DNA from: a bacterium (Candidatus Blackallbacteria) CG13_big_fil_rev_8_21_14_2_50_49_14
Lineage (GTDB): Bacteria; Cyanobacteriota; Sericytochromatia; UBA7694
DNA length: 50,167 nucleotides
Direction: 5' to 3'
NCBI GenBank assembly: GCA_002783405.1
Contig: PFGG01000059.1
Span: forward strand, 1-50,167
Position 1 is the stretch's first letter. Each line of letters starts with the position of its first letter. Positions 2,557 through 38,001 of this stretch are shown in pieces. A model generated the notes under the pieces. The model was not told the DNA's origin and made no database searches. It worked only from the letters and a program-made list of their open reading frames with translations. Made by a program: the position numbers and the translations under genes.

Positions 2557-3353
2557 TGCAGAAGCCCCTGGCTTGGGCCACAGATATCCATTTGGATCAT
2601 TGTGACGCGAATGTGATTGCAGAATTTGCAACGCAGATTCGCGCCACGGGAGCCCAGGTGCTTTGTCTGACAGGGGATTTGGCTGAGTCTCAGAATCTTG
2701 TGGACTATCTTCACTCCCTGGCCGAGATGATTCAAATGCCGATTTATTTTGTCTTGGGCAACCATGATTATTATCATGGCAGCATTGCTTCTGTACGTAA
2801 AACCCTGGCCGATCTCCAAATCCCTGCGCTTCATTGGCTGCCGCATACGGGGCCTGTGGAGCTGGGGGCAAAAGTTTGCCTGATTGGGCATGACGGCTGG
2901 TCAGATGGGCAGCACGGTGATTTTTCACGCTCTACGATTCGCCTCAAAGACTATCGCTTGATTGAAGAATTGGCGCAGGCAGGTCAAGCGGGGTTGCTTG
3001 CGCAATTGCAGGCTTTGGGAGCTGAGTCTGCGGCGTGGTTCCGGGCCCGATTGCCTGAGGTTCTTGCGCATTATCAGCAGGTTTATCTGCTCATGCACCC
3101 CCCGCCTTTTCGCGAGGCTTGTCTCTATGGCACTGAGATTGCTGATGATAATTGGGCTCCCCATTTTATTTGCAAAGCAGTCGGAGATTTGCTTTTGGAG
3201 CTGATGCCTCAGTTTCCCCAAACCCAGTTGACTGTTCTGGCGGGGCATACTCACAACCCCTGTGATATTCAGATTTTAGCCAATCTGCGCGTGCAGGTGG
3301 GCAAGGCCGAGTATGGGGCACCGGCCCTGGCAGGTTTGTTTGATATTTTTTGA
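2556..3353 (+). CDS. Calcineurin-like metallophosphoesterase
   Basis: 265 residues carrying the ordered metal-binding motifs of the superfamily: DxH (D10, H12), GDLAES (D41), GNHD (N69, H70, D71), a later H181 in LMHPPPF, and GHTH (H231, H233). These ligands build the two-metal centre that hydrolyses phosphomono- or diesters. There is no signal peptide, so it is probably cytoplasmic. Its ATG overlaps the stop of the lipoprotein gene by one base, indicating coupling. The substrate cannot be read from the sequence; the family includes cyclic-nucleotide, lipid and nucleotide phosphoesterases. Confidence 0.88.
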   Translation: MQKPLAWATDIHLDHCDANVIAEFATQIRATGAQVLCLTGDLAESQNLVDYLHSLAEMIQMPIYFVLGNHDYYHGSIASVRKTLADLQIPALHWLPHTGPVELGAKVCLIGHDGWSDGQHGDFSRSTIRLKDYRLIEELAQAGQAGLLAQLQALGAESAAWFRARLPEVLAHYQQVYLLMHPPPFREACLYGTEIADDNWAPHFICKAVGDLLLELMPQFPQTQLTVLAGHTHNPCDIQILANLRVQVGKAEYGAPALAGLFDIF

Positions 3354-3417
3354 TTAAACTAGGTCTCTGCTTGGGGGCCGTGTTATCTTAAACGTATCAT
3401 CTGCAAGGAGATCCGCT

Positions 3418-3906
3418 ATGTCTGCATCGGTCTATGATTTTGAAGTCAAAACGATTACGGGTGAAACAACCACCTTGGAGCCCTATCGCAACAAGGTGCT
3501 GGTGATTGTCAATACGGCCAGCAAATGTGGTTTAACCCCACAATATGAAGGGCTTGAAAAGCTTTACAGGTCCTACCGTGAGCAGGGACTTGAAATTTTG
3601 GGGTTTCCCTGTAACCAGTTTGGTTTGCAGGAACCTGGCAGCGAAGCTGAAATTCAAAGTTTTTGTCAATTGAATTTTAAGGTTGATTTTCCCATGTTTT
3701 CTAAGATTGAGGTCAATGGGTCTGATACCCATCCGCTCTATGCCTATTTAAAAGATGAAGCTCCGGGTCTTTTGGGATCTAAGCCGATCAAGTGGAATTT
3801 CACCAAGTTTCTGGTCAACCGTGAAGGCAAAGTTTTAAAACGTTTTGCACCCACCGATACCCCTGAAAGTATGGAGTCTGAAATCAAACGGGCTTTAAAG
3901 AAATAG
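3418..3906 (+). CDS. Glutathione peroxidase family (2-Cys, probably thioredoxin-dependent)
   Basis: 162 residues, full length for a bacterial GPx. The peroxidatic centre is NTASKCG with C37; the rest of the tetrad is Q71 in GLQEPG and W126/N127 in KWNFTKF. FPCNQFG is at 63-69. C83 in the helix before NFKVDFPMF sits where the resolving cysteine lies in thioredoxin-dependent (plant/insect-type) GPx enzymes, so reduction by thioredoxin rather than glutathione is likely. Cytoplasmic; removes H2O2 and organic hydroperoxides. A good AAGGAG lies just before the ATG. It ends 4 bases from the convergent EnvC-like gene, with no hairpin between them. Confidence 0.93.
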
Positions 3907-7286: not shown

Positions 7287-8429
7287 ATGAATCCCAAGCT
7301 GAGGGGTTGGCTGACCCTTGGGTTTTTTCTGGGCCTGGCGGGCTTAATTTACCTGATTCGCGATATTTTACTGCCCTTTATTTTCAGTGGTCTGTTTGTC
7401 TATTTATTGGCCCCTTTTGTTGATTATCTATCGCGTCAGAAATTTTTGGGTAAACCTGTTTCGCGTGGTCTGTGTGTCTTGCTGGCCTATATTTATGTGT
7501 TTATTGGTTTTGGTATTTTAGCCGTGATTGTTTTGCCGCCTTTATACCAAGAGGTGGTGCGCATTGGGCGGGATTTGCCCAATCAGTTTGAGCATTTGCG
7601 GGCTGTGACCTTGCCGACCTTTCTTCAGCAATTGGAGTATCTCAATACCCGGTTTCAGTTGCATCTTGATGTGCAAACCTATGCCAATCAAGGGCTTGAG
7701 ACTCTTTTAAAAGCCAGTGAGGGTCAATTCGAATCCTTGGCCATGCATATGCAGACTTTGGTCAAGCTTTTATTCTCGGCTTTGAGTACCTTTCTGGTTA
7801 TTTTTATCGTCACTGCTTTTGTTTTGATTGACCTGCCCCAAATCAAGCGTGGCTTATTGGAAAATATTCCGGTTCGTTATCGTTCTGGCATTTTGGATCT
7901 GGTACATGCCATTGATAAGGATCTCAGCGGCACGATTCGCGGGCAATTGGTGATTTGCATGATCAATGGCTCTCTGACCACTTTGGGACTCGTTTTATTA
8001 AAGGTTAAGTTTGCCATGACGATTGGTTTGGTGGCAGGGGTCTTCAGTCTGATTCCTGTCTTTGGTGCGGTGATCAGCACCGTTCCCGCTGTGATTATCG
8101 CCTTGACTCAGTCTCTGTGGACCGCCCTGGCTGTGATTGGTGTGATTATTATCATTCATTTGATCGAAGCCAATCTTTTGAATCCCAAGATTTTGGGGCA
8201 TACGGTAGAGTTGCATCCTGCGATTATTGTGTTTGCAATTATTGTTGGAGAGCATTTCTTTGGGGCGGTAGGACTTTTGTTTGGGGTGCCTGTGGCGGCT
8301 ATTCTGCGTTCGATTTTACGTTATCTTTATCGCAAATACTTTGCCGATGAACTTCTTGACTCCCCAGCCCCCGATCCTGCTGTGGAGCAAAACCTTGCCG
8401 AAAATCTCTTGAAGGGAGATCTGGGATGA
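7287..8429 (+). CDS. AI-2E family transporter (PerM/UPF0118-type permease)
   Basis: 380 residues with about eight hydrophobic segments and the central soluble region (about 90-155) typical of the family. Hallmark stretches are present: IRGQLVICMINGSL (217-230), LIPVFGAVISTVP (255-267), HPAIIV (310-315) and GAVGLLFGVP (326-335). Members export small molecules (autoinducer-2 in E. coli TqsA) or act as Na+/H+ antiporters, so the substrate is open. The ATG overlaps the stop of a 6-codon frame (ATGA at 7287-7290), and no clear Shine-Dalgarno is seen. It overlaps the next gene by four bases, making it the head of a three-gene coupled unit. The 264 bases upstream, shared with divergent uvrC, hold no clear gene. 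Confidence 0.9.
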   Translation: MNPKLRGWLTLGFFLGLAGLIYLIRDILLPFIFSGLFVYLLAPFVDYLSRQKFLGKPVSRGLCVLLAYIYVFIGFGILAVIVLPPLYQEVVRIGRDLPNQFEHLRAVTLPTFLQQLEYLNTRFQLHLDVQTYANQGLETLLKASEGQFESLAMHMQTLVKLLFSALSTFLVIFIVTAFVLIDLPQIKRGLLENIPVRYRSGILDLVHAIDKDLSGTIRGQLVICMINGSLTTLGLVLLKVKFAMTIGLVAGVFSLIPVFGAVISTVPAVIIALTQSLWTALAVIGVIIIIHLIEANLLNPKILGHTVELHPAIIVFAIIVGEHFFGAVGLLFGVPVAAILRSILRYLYRKYFADELLDSPAPDPAVEQNLAENLLKGDLG

Positions 8430-9928
8430 GCAAAGAAAAAAGCGGCGACTATTTTTCCATGTCGGATGAGGAGCATGCGCCCTCTCAAAAACAACCTTCA
8501 CGGGGTCAACAGCACAATCTTCGCAGTCAGTTTCTTGAAAAAGCAAAACAATTTATGGATGATACCGCTCTCGGTGAAACCAAAGGTTTGCTCAATCAGC
8601 TTTTGGGAAAAGCTGAGGAGCCCCAGGCGCTTGAGCCTGAAACAGAAGTGGTGCAGGAAGATTGGGAAGATGACTGGGAAGAGGATGAAGAAGAAGAGTT
8701 TGATTATTCTGATCCTGAATCGATTCGGGTAGGTTATGCCAAACCGGGCAGTAAGCCGCCCCCCAAACGTAAAACGCTGGATGAAGCACGGGATGAAAGC
8801 TTTGATATGAAACTGGAAGGCCTCTCTGGTCTTTTGAATCGTTTTGGCGCTGAACGTGTCGAGGAAGAAAAGCCCGAACCCAAAAATACAGCCCAGATCG
8901 ACATGGCTTTGTTTTCTGGGCAGATGCAGAAGATCTATGCCTTGATGGCTGAACAGTCGGGTGAAAGTGCCCAGACCGAATGGCTTCGGCCTGAAATTCT
9001 TTCGCTTTTGCGAATTTCTAACAGCCCTGAACTGATTATGGAGTTTGTGATTGCGGGGGTTTTTGCTGCAACCCCTGAAAATTTTATGGCACAGAGTGAT
9101 GTGGATTATATTATCCGTCTTTTGCATCAAATTGGGATTGACTTGCCTGCAGAAACCGTCATGGAGGCCATTTCACAAACCTTTATGTTTGCAGAGCGGG
9201 TGCACCGTCTTTATGCCAAATTGCTTGAAACGCCTCCGCAATTAAGTGCTGAACAGGTGGCCCGCCAAAAAGAAAATCTGGCCAAACTTTTTATTCATCA
9301 AGTGGCTCATTTTTATGAGACAGATCATAAGAGTGTGATTCGCACCTTGGCTGAACGTTGGACCGCCACTTGCAAAATGCTGGTTGAAGATCTAAGTGAA
9401 ATCGAGCGGATTCACCAACAGCTTTCACTTTTTAAAGAGCGAAAAATGGCCTCTGCGACGATTTTTCAAAAATCCATTCGGGCTGAGGAACGGGCTTTGG
9501 CGCAATGGGAGTTATTGAGAAAAATCGCATGGGATATTTCGGCCTTAAAAAAAGTCACCCTGCTCTTAGAAGAGCATGAAGCACTTCAAAAATTGCAGAT
9601 TTTTCCAATTCAGTATCTGCTGCCTGAAGAGGCGACTCTTGCTTGGGATGTGGTTCCTACATGGCAGGATATTCAAACCATTTTTGCGGTTTTTCAAGCG
9701 CATAAAATTCAGCCTTCTCAGCACAAACAGCCTGAATTTCAGGCCCAGTCACAACCTGATTTATCGCCCTTAAACCAGAAAAAAATTGTGACACGGGCTA
9801 AAAATGGTGAAGTCAGAGCGCTGAAAGAAATTACAGCCTATAAACATGTGCGTATGACCCAGATTCGGAATGATTTGGGCCGCCCCAAAGGCGAGAAGCA
9901 AGGGCCTGCTGCGGTGCATGAGGTATGA
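8426..9928 (+). CDS. Uncharacterised 500-residue protein with acidic linker
   Basis: Starts inside the stop of the permease gene (ATGA) and ends inside the start of the esterase gene (ATGA), so all three are translationally coupled. The N-terminal ~65 residues are polar. Residues 70-95 are extremely acidic (runs of Glu, Asp and Trp such as EDWEDDWEEDEEEE). From about residue 160 to 430 the protein is predicted mostly helical with regular Leu/Ala/Glu patterning. There is no signal peptide and no membrane segment. I recognise no domain. The coupling suggests a cytoplasmic partner or regulator of the permease or esterase, which is inference only. Confidence 0.8.
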   Translation: MSKEKSGDYFSMSDEEHAPSQKQPSRGQQHNLRSQFLEKAKQFMDDTALGETKGLLNQLLGKAEEPQALEPETEVVQEDWEDDWEEDEEEEFDYSDPESIRVGYAKPGSKPPPKRKTLDEARDESFDMKLEGLSGLLNRFGAERVEEEKPEPKNTAQIDMALFSGQMQKIYALMAEQSGESAQTEWLRPEILSLLRISNSPELIMEFVIAGVFAATPENFMAQSDVDYIIRLLHQIGIDLPAETVMEAISQTFMFAERVHRLYAKLLETPPQLSAEQVARQKENLAKLFIHQVAHFYETDHKSVIRTLAERWTATCKMLVEDLSEIERIHQQLSLFKERKMASATIFQKSIRAEERALAQWELLRKIAWDISALKKVTLLLEEHEALQKLQIFPIQYLLPEEATLAWDVVPTWQDIQTIFAVFQAHKIQPSQHKQPEFQAQSQPDLSPLNQKKIVTRAKNGEVRALKEITAYKHVRMTQIRNDLGRPKGEKQGPAAVHEV

Positions 9929-36599: not shown

Positions 36600-36626
36600 T
36601 TAGCACTCATTAACATAGAGTGCTGA
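36600..36626. promoter_or_regulatory. CIRCE operator (HrcA-binding site)
   Basis: TTAGCACTC - 9 bases - GAGTGCTGA matches the CIRCE consensus TTAGCACTC-N9-GAGTGCTAA with one mismatch. It sits 50 bases before groES, at the expected transcription start. HrcA should repress groESL here and be released on heat shock; hrcA is not in the window. Confidence 0.96.
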
Positions 36627-36666: not shown

Positions 36667-36730
36667 GAGAATTTTGAGTTCAAAAGCAAAAAAATTATCA
36701 CTCGCACAGTAAGAGCGCTAATTAAAATTC

Positions 36731-36778: not shown

Positions 36779-37786
36779 TTAGTGGTGTTCGGCGACAACC
36801 GCTCCGATATAAGATGCTGTCAACATAGAGAAGATAAAGGCTTGGATAAATCCAACCAAAACTTCCAGGGTCATCATGGGTAAAACGACCACGCTGGTGA
36901 CGATCAGGGGAGCGGTTAAGAAGAGCAGAATCCCCATCACGATTTCGCCTCCGATGATGTTTCCGAATAAACGGAAAGTCAGTGAAAGAGGACGGGTCAA
37001 ATCTTCCATCATATTGAGCGGGAAGAGAAACCACATGGGTTGAAAATAATGCTTGAAATGGGCCAGGCCTTTTTTACGAATGCCAAAATACCAATAGGAA
37101 ATAACAGAGATGACTGCAATAGCGCCATTTGTATTTACATCATTGGTGGGAGAGGCAATTTCAAAACCATGGGGAGTGCCAAAGAGTTCAAGCACGCGCC
37201 AGGGCAAAAGACCCAGCCAGTTTGAACAGAGCACAAACAAGAAAATGGTGCCGATCAAAGGCACATAGCGATAGGTGTCTTTGTGAACCTGTGAAGAGAC
37301 GATGCTGTTCGCCAGATCGACTACAGATTCAAAGAAAACCTGTTTTTTCTCGGGTTTTTTGCTGAGTTTGCGCGTGCCCATAAAGGCCAGCGCAATCAGA
37401 ATGGCCATGACCAACCAACTGCCCATCAGGGTATCCAAATGGACTTTGGCTGGACCGATCTGAAGATTGTAGTGGCTGGGAGGATGATAAGAAGAACTTG
37501 CTTCATGGTGTTCTTCTGCTCCGCCATGTTCTTCTGGGGTGCCATGTTCTGTATTTGAAGCATTATGTGTTTCTTCGGCACTGTGCTCGGTCGTCATGGT
37601 GACGCTGCCGTGCTCCGTGTCGGAGGGCTTACCGTGAGTTTCATTACTGCTGTGCTCAGTACTGGAGACAGTGCCTTGCTCCGTGCTGGAGGTGCTGTGT
37701 TCTTCTACAGCGCTGTGCTCAGTACTGGAGACAGTGCCGTGCGATTCTTCGGCCTGATGGTGTTCTGTTGCAAATGCAGGCTGCAC
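36779..37786 (-). CDS. atpB: F0F1 ATP synthase subunit a with His-rich N-terminal extension
   Basis: 335 residues, about 80-95 longer than usual. The core (about 105-335) is a normal a-subunit: first TM about 124-137, SNWLGLLPW (188-196), ILED-like MMEDLTRPLSL (259-269), the essential Arg R272 in FRLFGN, and a last TM pair ending at AEHH. The first ~95 residues are Ser/Thr/Glu/His-rich repeats (TEHS, EEH) with 14 His, one Lys and no Arg. The GTG start at 37786 follows AAGGAG at 7 bases, so the extension is translated. The N-terminus of subunit a faces the periplasm, so it would be exposed there. No other atp gene is nearby and terminators or gaps isolate it on both sides. Confidence 0.93.
   Translation of the reverse strand: MQPAFATEHHQAEESHGTVSSTEHSAVEEHSTSSTEQGTVSSTEHSSNETHGKPSDTEHGSVTMTTEHSAEETHNASNTEHGTPEEHGGAEEHHEASSSYHPPSHYNLQIGPAKVHLDTLMGSWLVMAILIALAFMGTRKLSKKPEKKQVFFESVVDLANSIVSSQVHKDTYRYVPLIGTIFLFVLCSNWLGLLPWRVLELFGTPHGFEIASPTNDVNTNGAIAVISVISYWYFGIRKKGLAHFKHYFQPMWFLFPLNMMEDLTRPLSLTFRLFGNIIGGEIVMGILLFLTAPLIVTSVVVLPMMTLEVLVGFIQAFIFSMLTASYIGAVVAEHH
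37502..37786 (-). repeat. Degenerate TEHS/EEH repeat tract coding the atpB extension
   Basis: The 285-base coding tract repeats short units. The 20-mer GTGCTCAGTACTGGAGACAG (plus strand) occurs twice, near 37650 and 37714, showing growth by duplication. Confidence 0.75.
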
Positions 37787-38001
37787 AACCGTTCTCCTTA
37801 TATATATTGCTTGATTGGATGTACAGAGTAGTTAAGCTCAAACCTTGAAGCTCAATTTGGTGTAACCAGACAGTCTCAAACGTGTTTGACAGGAGGGTTT
37901 TGATTCCAGCGCAAACAAATCGAGGCAGGTACACACTGACTCATGCTCAGGAATTTTAGCATAGGCCAAGAGCCTCCCGCCAGATCATCACGCTTTTGAG
38001 A

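Follow-up and report, generated by a model that had tools for sequence, protein, structure and literature searches.

The window, by which we mean the whole 50,167-nucleotide stretch of Candidatus Blackallbacteria DNA that was analyzed, carries an atpB gene whose product joins a subunit a of F-type ATP synthase to a long tail rich in His, Glu, Ser, and Thr (Table 1). The open reading frame called originally is real, although the strand had been left unstated; the gene is read on the minus strand, and stop codons are abundant on the plus strand over the same interval. The first 99 residues contain 14 His (positions 9, 10, 16, 24, 30, 45, 51, 59, 68, 74, 81, 87, 93, and 94), 19 Glu and one Asp (20 acidic residues in all), a single Lys, K53, which provides the one tryptic site of the tail, and no Arg. 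Pfam model PF00119 (ATP-synt_A) spans residues 122-327 at 180.4 bits, against a cut-off of 33.9, and the score against TIGR01131 also lies above its cut-off. Residues R272, N276, E261, and Q315 occupy invariant alignment columns. The whole core, Arg272 included, is shared with canonical subunit a of the chloroplast and cyanobacterial type, and the nearest solved relatives are chloroplast subunit a, both by sequence and by fold (6fkf_a, E 5e-11). Judged on its sequence, the extended AtpB is a member of the F-type subunit a family by every membership test made. Its C-terminus, ending in GAVVAEHH, has no His-rich extension.

Table 1. Features of the atpB locus, in window coordinates.
Feature	Position	Strand	Basis
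atpB (335 aa, from GTG to stop), encoding an N-terminally extended subunit a of F-type ATP synthase	36779..37786	-	PF00119 E 5.9e-53; TIGR01131 147.9 bits (cut-off 102.6)
His/Glu/Ser/Thr-rich tail, residues 1-99, predicted disordered	37490..37786	-	composition; pLDDT <50 over residues 1-110
Shine-Dalgarno AAGGAG, 7 nt before GTG	37794..37799	-	AAGGAGAACGGTT-GTG common to 5/5 family genomes
TM1, residues 117-140, then Lys-rich (cytoplasmic) loop	37367..37438	-	predicted structure and sequence
Codon of essential Arg272 (E. coli Arg210 position)	36971..36973	-	invariant column R272
Terminator-like hairpin (intrinsic), 16 pairs and T run, just past stop codon	36735..36769	-	sequence

The original prediction described the locus accurately. 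Its counts for residues 1-95 (14 His, one Lys, no Arg) were reproduced, an ordinary subunit a with the essential Arg at residue 272 does follow the extension, and the AAGGAG that it placed ahead of the GTG was located with a 7-nt spacing. The gene is solitary as claimed, no other atp gene being found around it among the open reading frames of the window, and the terminator of its own that had been proposed corresponds to a strong hairpin that resembles a terminator and is accompanied by a T run. Two CIRCE-like elements lie between atpB and groES, at 36600-36626 and 36695-36721, with one and two mismatches respectively. None would be expected by chance, and the pair points to possible HrcA-type control of groESL.

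That the extension is made, as had been argued from the Shine-Dalgarno sequence, is very probable. The stretch AAGGAGAACGGTT-GTG-CAG is identical at the start of the gene in all five genomes of the family described below, and in one of them (G003, locus L011) no alternative in-frame ATG, GTG, or TTG occurs before TM1; these two observations support translation. The GTG can be taken as the start because an in-frame stop lies just 5-15 codons upstream of it in four of the five. The initial residues, M-Q-P/L-A-F/L/Y-A, are preserved at the protein level through synonymous codon changes, and the tail frame remains open for 89-123 codons in every family genome despite differing sequences. The MQPAFA segment has the look of a signal peptide cleavage site, but a signal peptide was rejected: there is no hydrophobic stretch, and the highest 15-residue hydropathy value within residues 1-100 is -0.78.

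In an AlphaFold model built from a shallow alignment, block means of pLDDT are about 29-40 over residues 1-100, and the tail is left unplaced relative to the input funnel. The tail most likely lies outside the inner membrane, in the periplasm beside the proton-entry side. The sequence after TM1, TRKLSKKPEKK, is Lys-rich, which by the positive-inside rule would place the tail outside, and an N-terminal tail free of Lys and Arg suits translocation across the membrane. Residues 8-16 of E. coli subunit a are found on the periplasmic side, where their neighbors are the b N-terminus and the C-terminal end of a c subunit (PMC7251095). The periplasmic N-terminus of the original prediction is therefore the expected side, both from E. 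coli and from the Lys-rich loop.

Genomic setting of the extended and tail-less subunits

The housekeeping ATP synthase genes of this genome are found in three places. Contig C20 carries a canonical F1 operon, b'-b-delta-alpha-gamma-beta-epsilon (alpha and beta found by search, the rest read from sequence), with neither a nor c; an ordinary c gene, whose product has no Na+-type ES motif, stands alone on C11; and subunit a is encoded on C59, the contig of the window. All partner subunits for an F-type subunit a are therefore present. The genes on C20 and C11 have other genes on their flanks, so that a contig-edge artefact was rejected as the source of the split operon in this genome. It had been proposed to look for the remaining atp operon elsewhere; it lies on C20 and C11, with no additional subunit a gene in either place.

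The original prediction also held that a second, normal atpB inside a complete atp operon would make the extended gene a paralogue. Two further atpB copies do exist, and formally they answer that description, yet both belong to N-ATPase-like operons (C14:28-38k and C21:74-84k) and both lack the tail. The c subunits of these operons have an ES motif and an extra Glu, as in Na+-type rings. The C14 copy scores 361.4 bits against model TIGR03306 (altF1_A; cut-off 302.1) and is preceded by two small atp genes, while the C21 copy is similar to it but more distant and falls below that cut-off. The extended AtpB reaches 118.4 bits against the same model and has no atpQ/atpR-like neighbors, which places it outside the N-ATPase type. 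Searched with PF00119, relatives G001-G004 yield the extended gene alone. A reading of the extended gene as a spare paralogue was rejected, the other atpB genes being N-ATPase-like and the relatives carrying the extended gene only. From the F1 operon that has no a or c gene, and from the sole matches in G001-G004, the extended AtpB is, on gene content, the housekeeping, proton-type subunit a, with its gene relocated. N-ATPase sequences have been reported previously in Sericytochromatia (PMC8047818).

Relatives that carry a name are Candidatus Sericytochromatia metagenome-assembled genomes. Within the family, atpB and atpE are on different contigs (G000, the present genome, through G003, where the G003 contig is short); outside it, atpB adjoins atpE in the class relatives in which both genes were found. 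In a phylogenetic tree, the five family AtpB sequences form one clade (100/99) among Sericytochromatia and cyanobacterial subunits, apart from the two other copies of the same genome, whose joint placement is a long-branch join and not for close reading.

Conservation of the tail and similar segments on other proteins

A search of related genomes for similar atpB extensions, as suggested originally, found the tail in all five genomes of one family of Sericytochromatia, which are non-photosynthetic relatives of cyanobacteria, with 89-123 residues, 12-21 His, and 0-2 Lys or Arg. That the trait is family-wide, and that similar tails occur on other respiratory and ion-transport proteins, had been missed. 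When 385 open reading frames of the genome were scanned in 95-residue segments, the AtpB tail was the densest in His (15 residues; the next had 12). Given this rank and its conservation in all five genomes, the His density of the tail is not a product of chance.

The tail is kept in composition, not in sequence. His, at 12.8-17.8% of tail residues (mean 14.6%), is the steadiest residue across the five genomes (CV 0.13); total Asp plus Glu (12-20%, CV 0.19) and Thr (CV 0.15) are likewise steady. Glu (2.5-19%) and Asp (1-14%) individually trade places, and Ser (8-27%) and Gly (3-20%) vary as widely. Repeat units differ between genomes, from 24-nt units of TEHS type in G001 to 12-nt xHGD units in G002, always in multiples of 3 nt, and the His codons are a mixture of CAC and CAT. 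Few His columns can be aligned (7/19, 12/26, and 8/19), His residues are separated by gaps of 1-15 with no fixed spacing or motif across the family, and no conserved tail motif was found beyond the first six residues and a YHPP/YHAP junction. Over the tail, pN/pS takes values of 0.50-0.65, less than 1 yet well above the 0.12-0.30 of the core; these values are rough, given aligned repeats and near-saturated synonymous sites.

Beyond the family, a sister family (G005) has only a short stub, GNSVVEHASSAAEHAEG (EHASSAAEHAE), and G007 has a short N-terminus of the form EHAS...GHAAEAAH. A sample of the phylum comprised 244 genomes, 240 with a match; inspection covered the part of these matches that was listed, leaving aside the N-termini of G012, G013, and G016. 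Among the matches listed, open frames longer than 360 residues outside the family were confined to G176 and G180, and both were rejected as tails, being upstream read-through without a His tail. A tblastn search of a plasmid collection with the AtpB protein found ordinary subunit a only, at below 60% identity. In G006, a relative at the level of order, the N-terminal part of atpB is broken by a frame change (C1:113999-114523, locus L165), which may be an assembly error or real; TAG recoding was rejected there, the frame being simply broken.

Similar segments were sought in 1983 open reading frames covering 2.31 of the 5.65 Mb (41%) of the genome, under a criterion of at least five His in a 40-residue stretch with few hydrophobic residues. 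Six were found: atpB, a CitMHS_2 protein of the ion-transporter superfamily, an SCO1/SenC-like protein, a cytochrome c, a protein with AAEH repeats, and one doubtful open reading frame. Four of the six segments are on respiratory or ion-transport proteins, and two of those four belong to one gene cluster, an enrichment noticed post hoc. The CitMHS_2 protein (L160:2698-4224, equivalent to G000 C65:82.7-84.2k, minus strand) has a His-rich, Lys/Arg-poor N-terminal tail in five of five family genomes, with two tandem copies in G003. The cytochrome c, a membrane-anchored protein of an oxidase cluster (L166:10562-11167; G000 C35:210.5k), has PKTEEHA repeats between its anchor and its haem domain. 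Its counterparts in all five family genomes have His- and acid-rich linkers of TEEH or HGD repeats, with a genome-specific flavor that matches the atpB tail. Among 120 permutations, the pairing of linker composition with the atpB tail of the same genome ranked first, and the corresponding pairing for CitMHS_2 tails ranked 15th. Neither the CitMHS_2 tail protein nor the linker cytochrome c has a homolog in the other relatives searched. That such tails occur on AtpB and on at least two other respiratory or ion-transport proteins suggests that they may serve to collect or buffer protons (or metals).

Three further observations were made on such segments. The SCO1/SenC-like protein, encoded in the oxidase cluster (L166:4231-4986), has an inserted SHAHSEHSHNREEQ stretch (SHAHSEHSH). 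The AAEH-repeat protein (L262:16724-17533), with family unassigned, has an AAEH/ATH run with 11 His in 40 residues. Short His-rich stretches such as MSHAATVDQQHPHAEHHHEEHS stand at the N-termini of oxidase subunits I, III, and IV (L166:778-2493, 3135-3458, 8317-8952, and 8952-9596). The N-termini of these oxidase subunits are expected on the cytoplasmic side, so the His-rich trait is not strictly periplasmic.

Possible functions of the tail

We tentatively prefer a reading, possible rather than probable, in which the housekeeping AtpB has gained a disordered periplasmic tail of about 90-120 residues that would serve as a tethered brush of imidazole and carboxylate groups, gathering and buffering protons at the input funnel. 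Situated in the periplasm next to the funnel of the proton input half-channel, the tail would bind periplasmic protons on its Asp/Glu residues and closely packed His (pKa near 6-7), store them locally, and pass them to the funnel. The local supply might thereby be buffered when arrival of protons from the bulk limits the motor, with a presumed benefit to ATP synthesis. By simple pKa sums, the tail has a charge of about -17 at pH 7.5 and of about -4 at pH 5.5, its His residues accounting for the uptake of roughly 11 protons. This function is favored by the steadiness of His and of Asp plus Glu while most other tail residues swing, and by the housekeeping c subunit having no Na+-type ES motif while the N-ATPase-like a subunits have no tail. 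For E. coli Fo, Yanagisawa and Frasch have proposed that a funnel lined with carboxylate and imidazole groups acts as a proton antenna (PMC9447477). There such groups are likewise found where protons enter subunit a from the periplasm but are parts of folded core subunits, whereas here they would be on a flexible added tail whose antenna function is putative. The His-rich C-terminus of ice-worm ATP6 raised ATP synthesis in E. coli, according to the account of Dunkley et al. 2025 given in PMC12796488. The proton-gathering reading is weakened by the His-rich oxidase N-termini on the expected cytoplasmic side, by the few alignable His columns, and by the post hoc character of the enrichment among the six segments. 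It is weakened also because conservation of composition fits metal binding too.

Metal binding is the main rival, in our estimate a somewhat doubtful one: the tail may be a low-affinity sponge or sensor for Zn, Cu, or Ni at the periplasmic face, which would either shield the funnel from channel-blocking transition metals or store copper or zinc for the nearby respiratory chain, the two variants taken together. Spaced His with Glu or Asp are classic Zn and Cu ligands, and the SCO1/SenC-like protein with the SHAHSEHSH insertion is of a copper-chaperone family and shares its oxidase cluster with the cytochrome c. Subunit a of P. aeruginosa has a probable zinc site that affects ATP synthesis, which counts for this reading although the site is cytoplasmic (PMC12796488). 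However, the variable gaps between His residues form no fixed spacing or motif across genomes, no gene recognizably connected with metals lies next to atpB in the window, and the steady acidic content is not explained by metal binding alone.

It is unlikely that the tail serves chiefly as a spacer or topogenic segment, a polar N-terminus without Lys or Arg that crosses the membrane first, enlarged by near-neutral repeat growth, with no special job for His. Lys plus Arg number 0-2 in the presumed N-out tails of AtpB and CitMHS_2, against 1-9 in the cytochrome c linkers behind a membrane anchor, as a topogenic role would have it. The rapid evolution of the tail, its slippage-like repeats, whose units are multiples of 3 nt, and its lack of a signal peptide agree with such a role too. 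A neutral spacer would, however, be expected to lose His somewhere, and its constancy at 13-18% in five of five genomes amid turnover of other residues weakens this reading, as does the absence of any loss of the tail among the five. Very unlikely is a contact function, in which the tail would, for instance, anchor subunit a, encoded apart from its partners, to peptidoglycan, the b/b' stator, or similarly tailed respiratory complexes: the N-terminal helix of E. coli subunit a does make contact with the start of b and with the C-terminal end of a c subunit, its truncation breaking the enzyme (PMC7251095), and atpB tail and cytochrome c linker compositions co-vary by genome, but predicted disorder, fast sequence change, and the lack of motifs beyond the two ends of the tail argue against it.

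Proton gathering by the AtpB tail admits a wider form, which we consider quite unlikely, in which AtpB, the oxidase-cluster cytochrome c, and CitMHS_2 of this family would bear matching disordered periplasmic brushes, jointly making up a proton buffer at the membrane surface or a relay there from pumps to consumers. It has long been argued whether protons pass from pumps to ATP synthase over the membrane surface and whether their delivery is limiting for the motor. The AtpB tail, a natural and removable His-rich addition at the presumed input side, is suited to a clean grafting experiment, with built-in controls in the short-tailed sister family and the two tail-less N-ATPase copies of the same genome.

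Our search of openly licensed papers found no literature on His-rich or N-terminal extensions of bacterial subunit a. From sequence comparison, the arrangement is distinct from the N-ATPase, ice-worm, and Bacteroidota kinds. Relative to canonical subunit a, there are about 90 extra His- and acid-rich low-complexity residues at the N-terminus, and the gene stands apart from atpE and the F1 operon. The subunit a of N-ATPases (TIGR03306), present in two copies in this genome, is without a tail. ATP6 of the ice worm Mesenchytraeus has a His-rich extension on the same subunit, but as described in PMC12796488 it is C-terminal, whereas the extension here is N-terminal, on what is presumed to be the input side, and is shared by a whole bacterial family. 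Bacteroidota subunit a also has an extended N-terminus, in part His-containing, but the six that were read start with a hydrophobic segment resembling a signal peptide, and their N-terminal region is longer and more conserved, whereas here there are repeats only and no signal peptide. Long atpB open frames are the rule among the 41 Bacteroidota genomes sampled.
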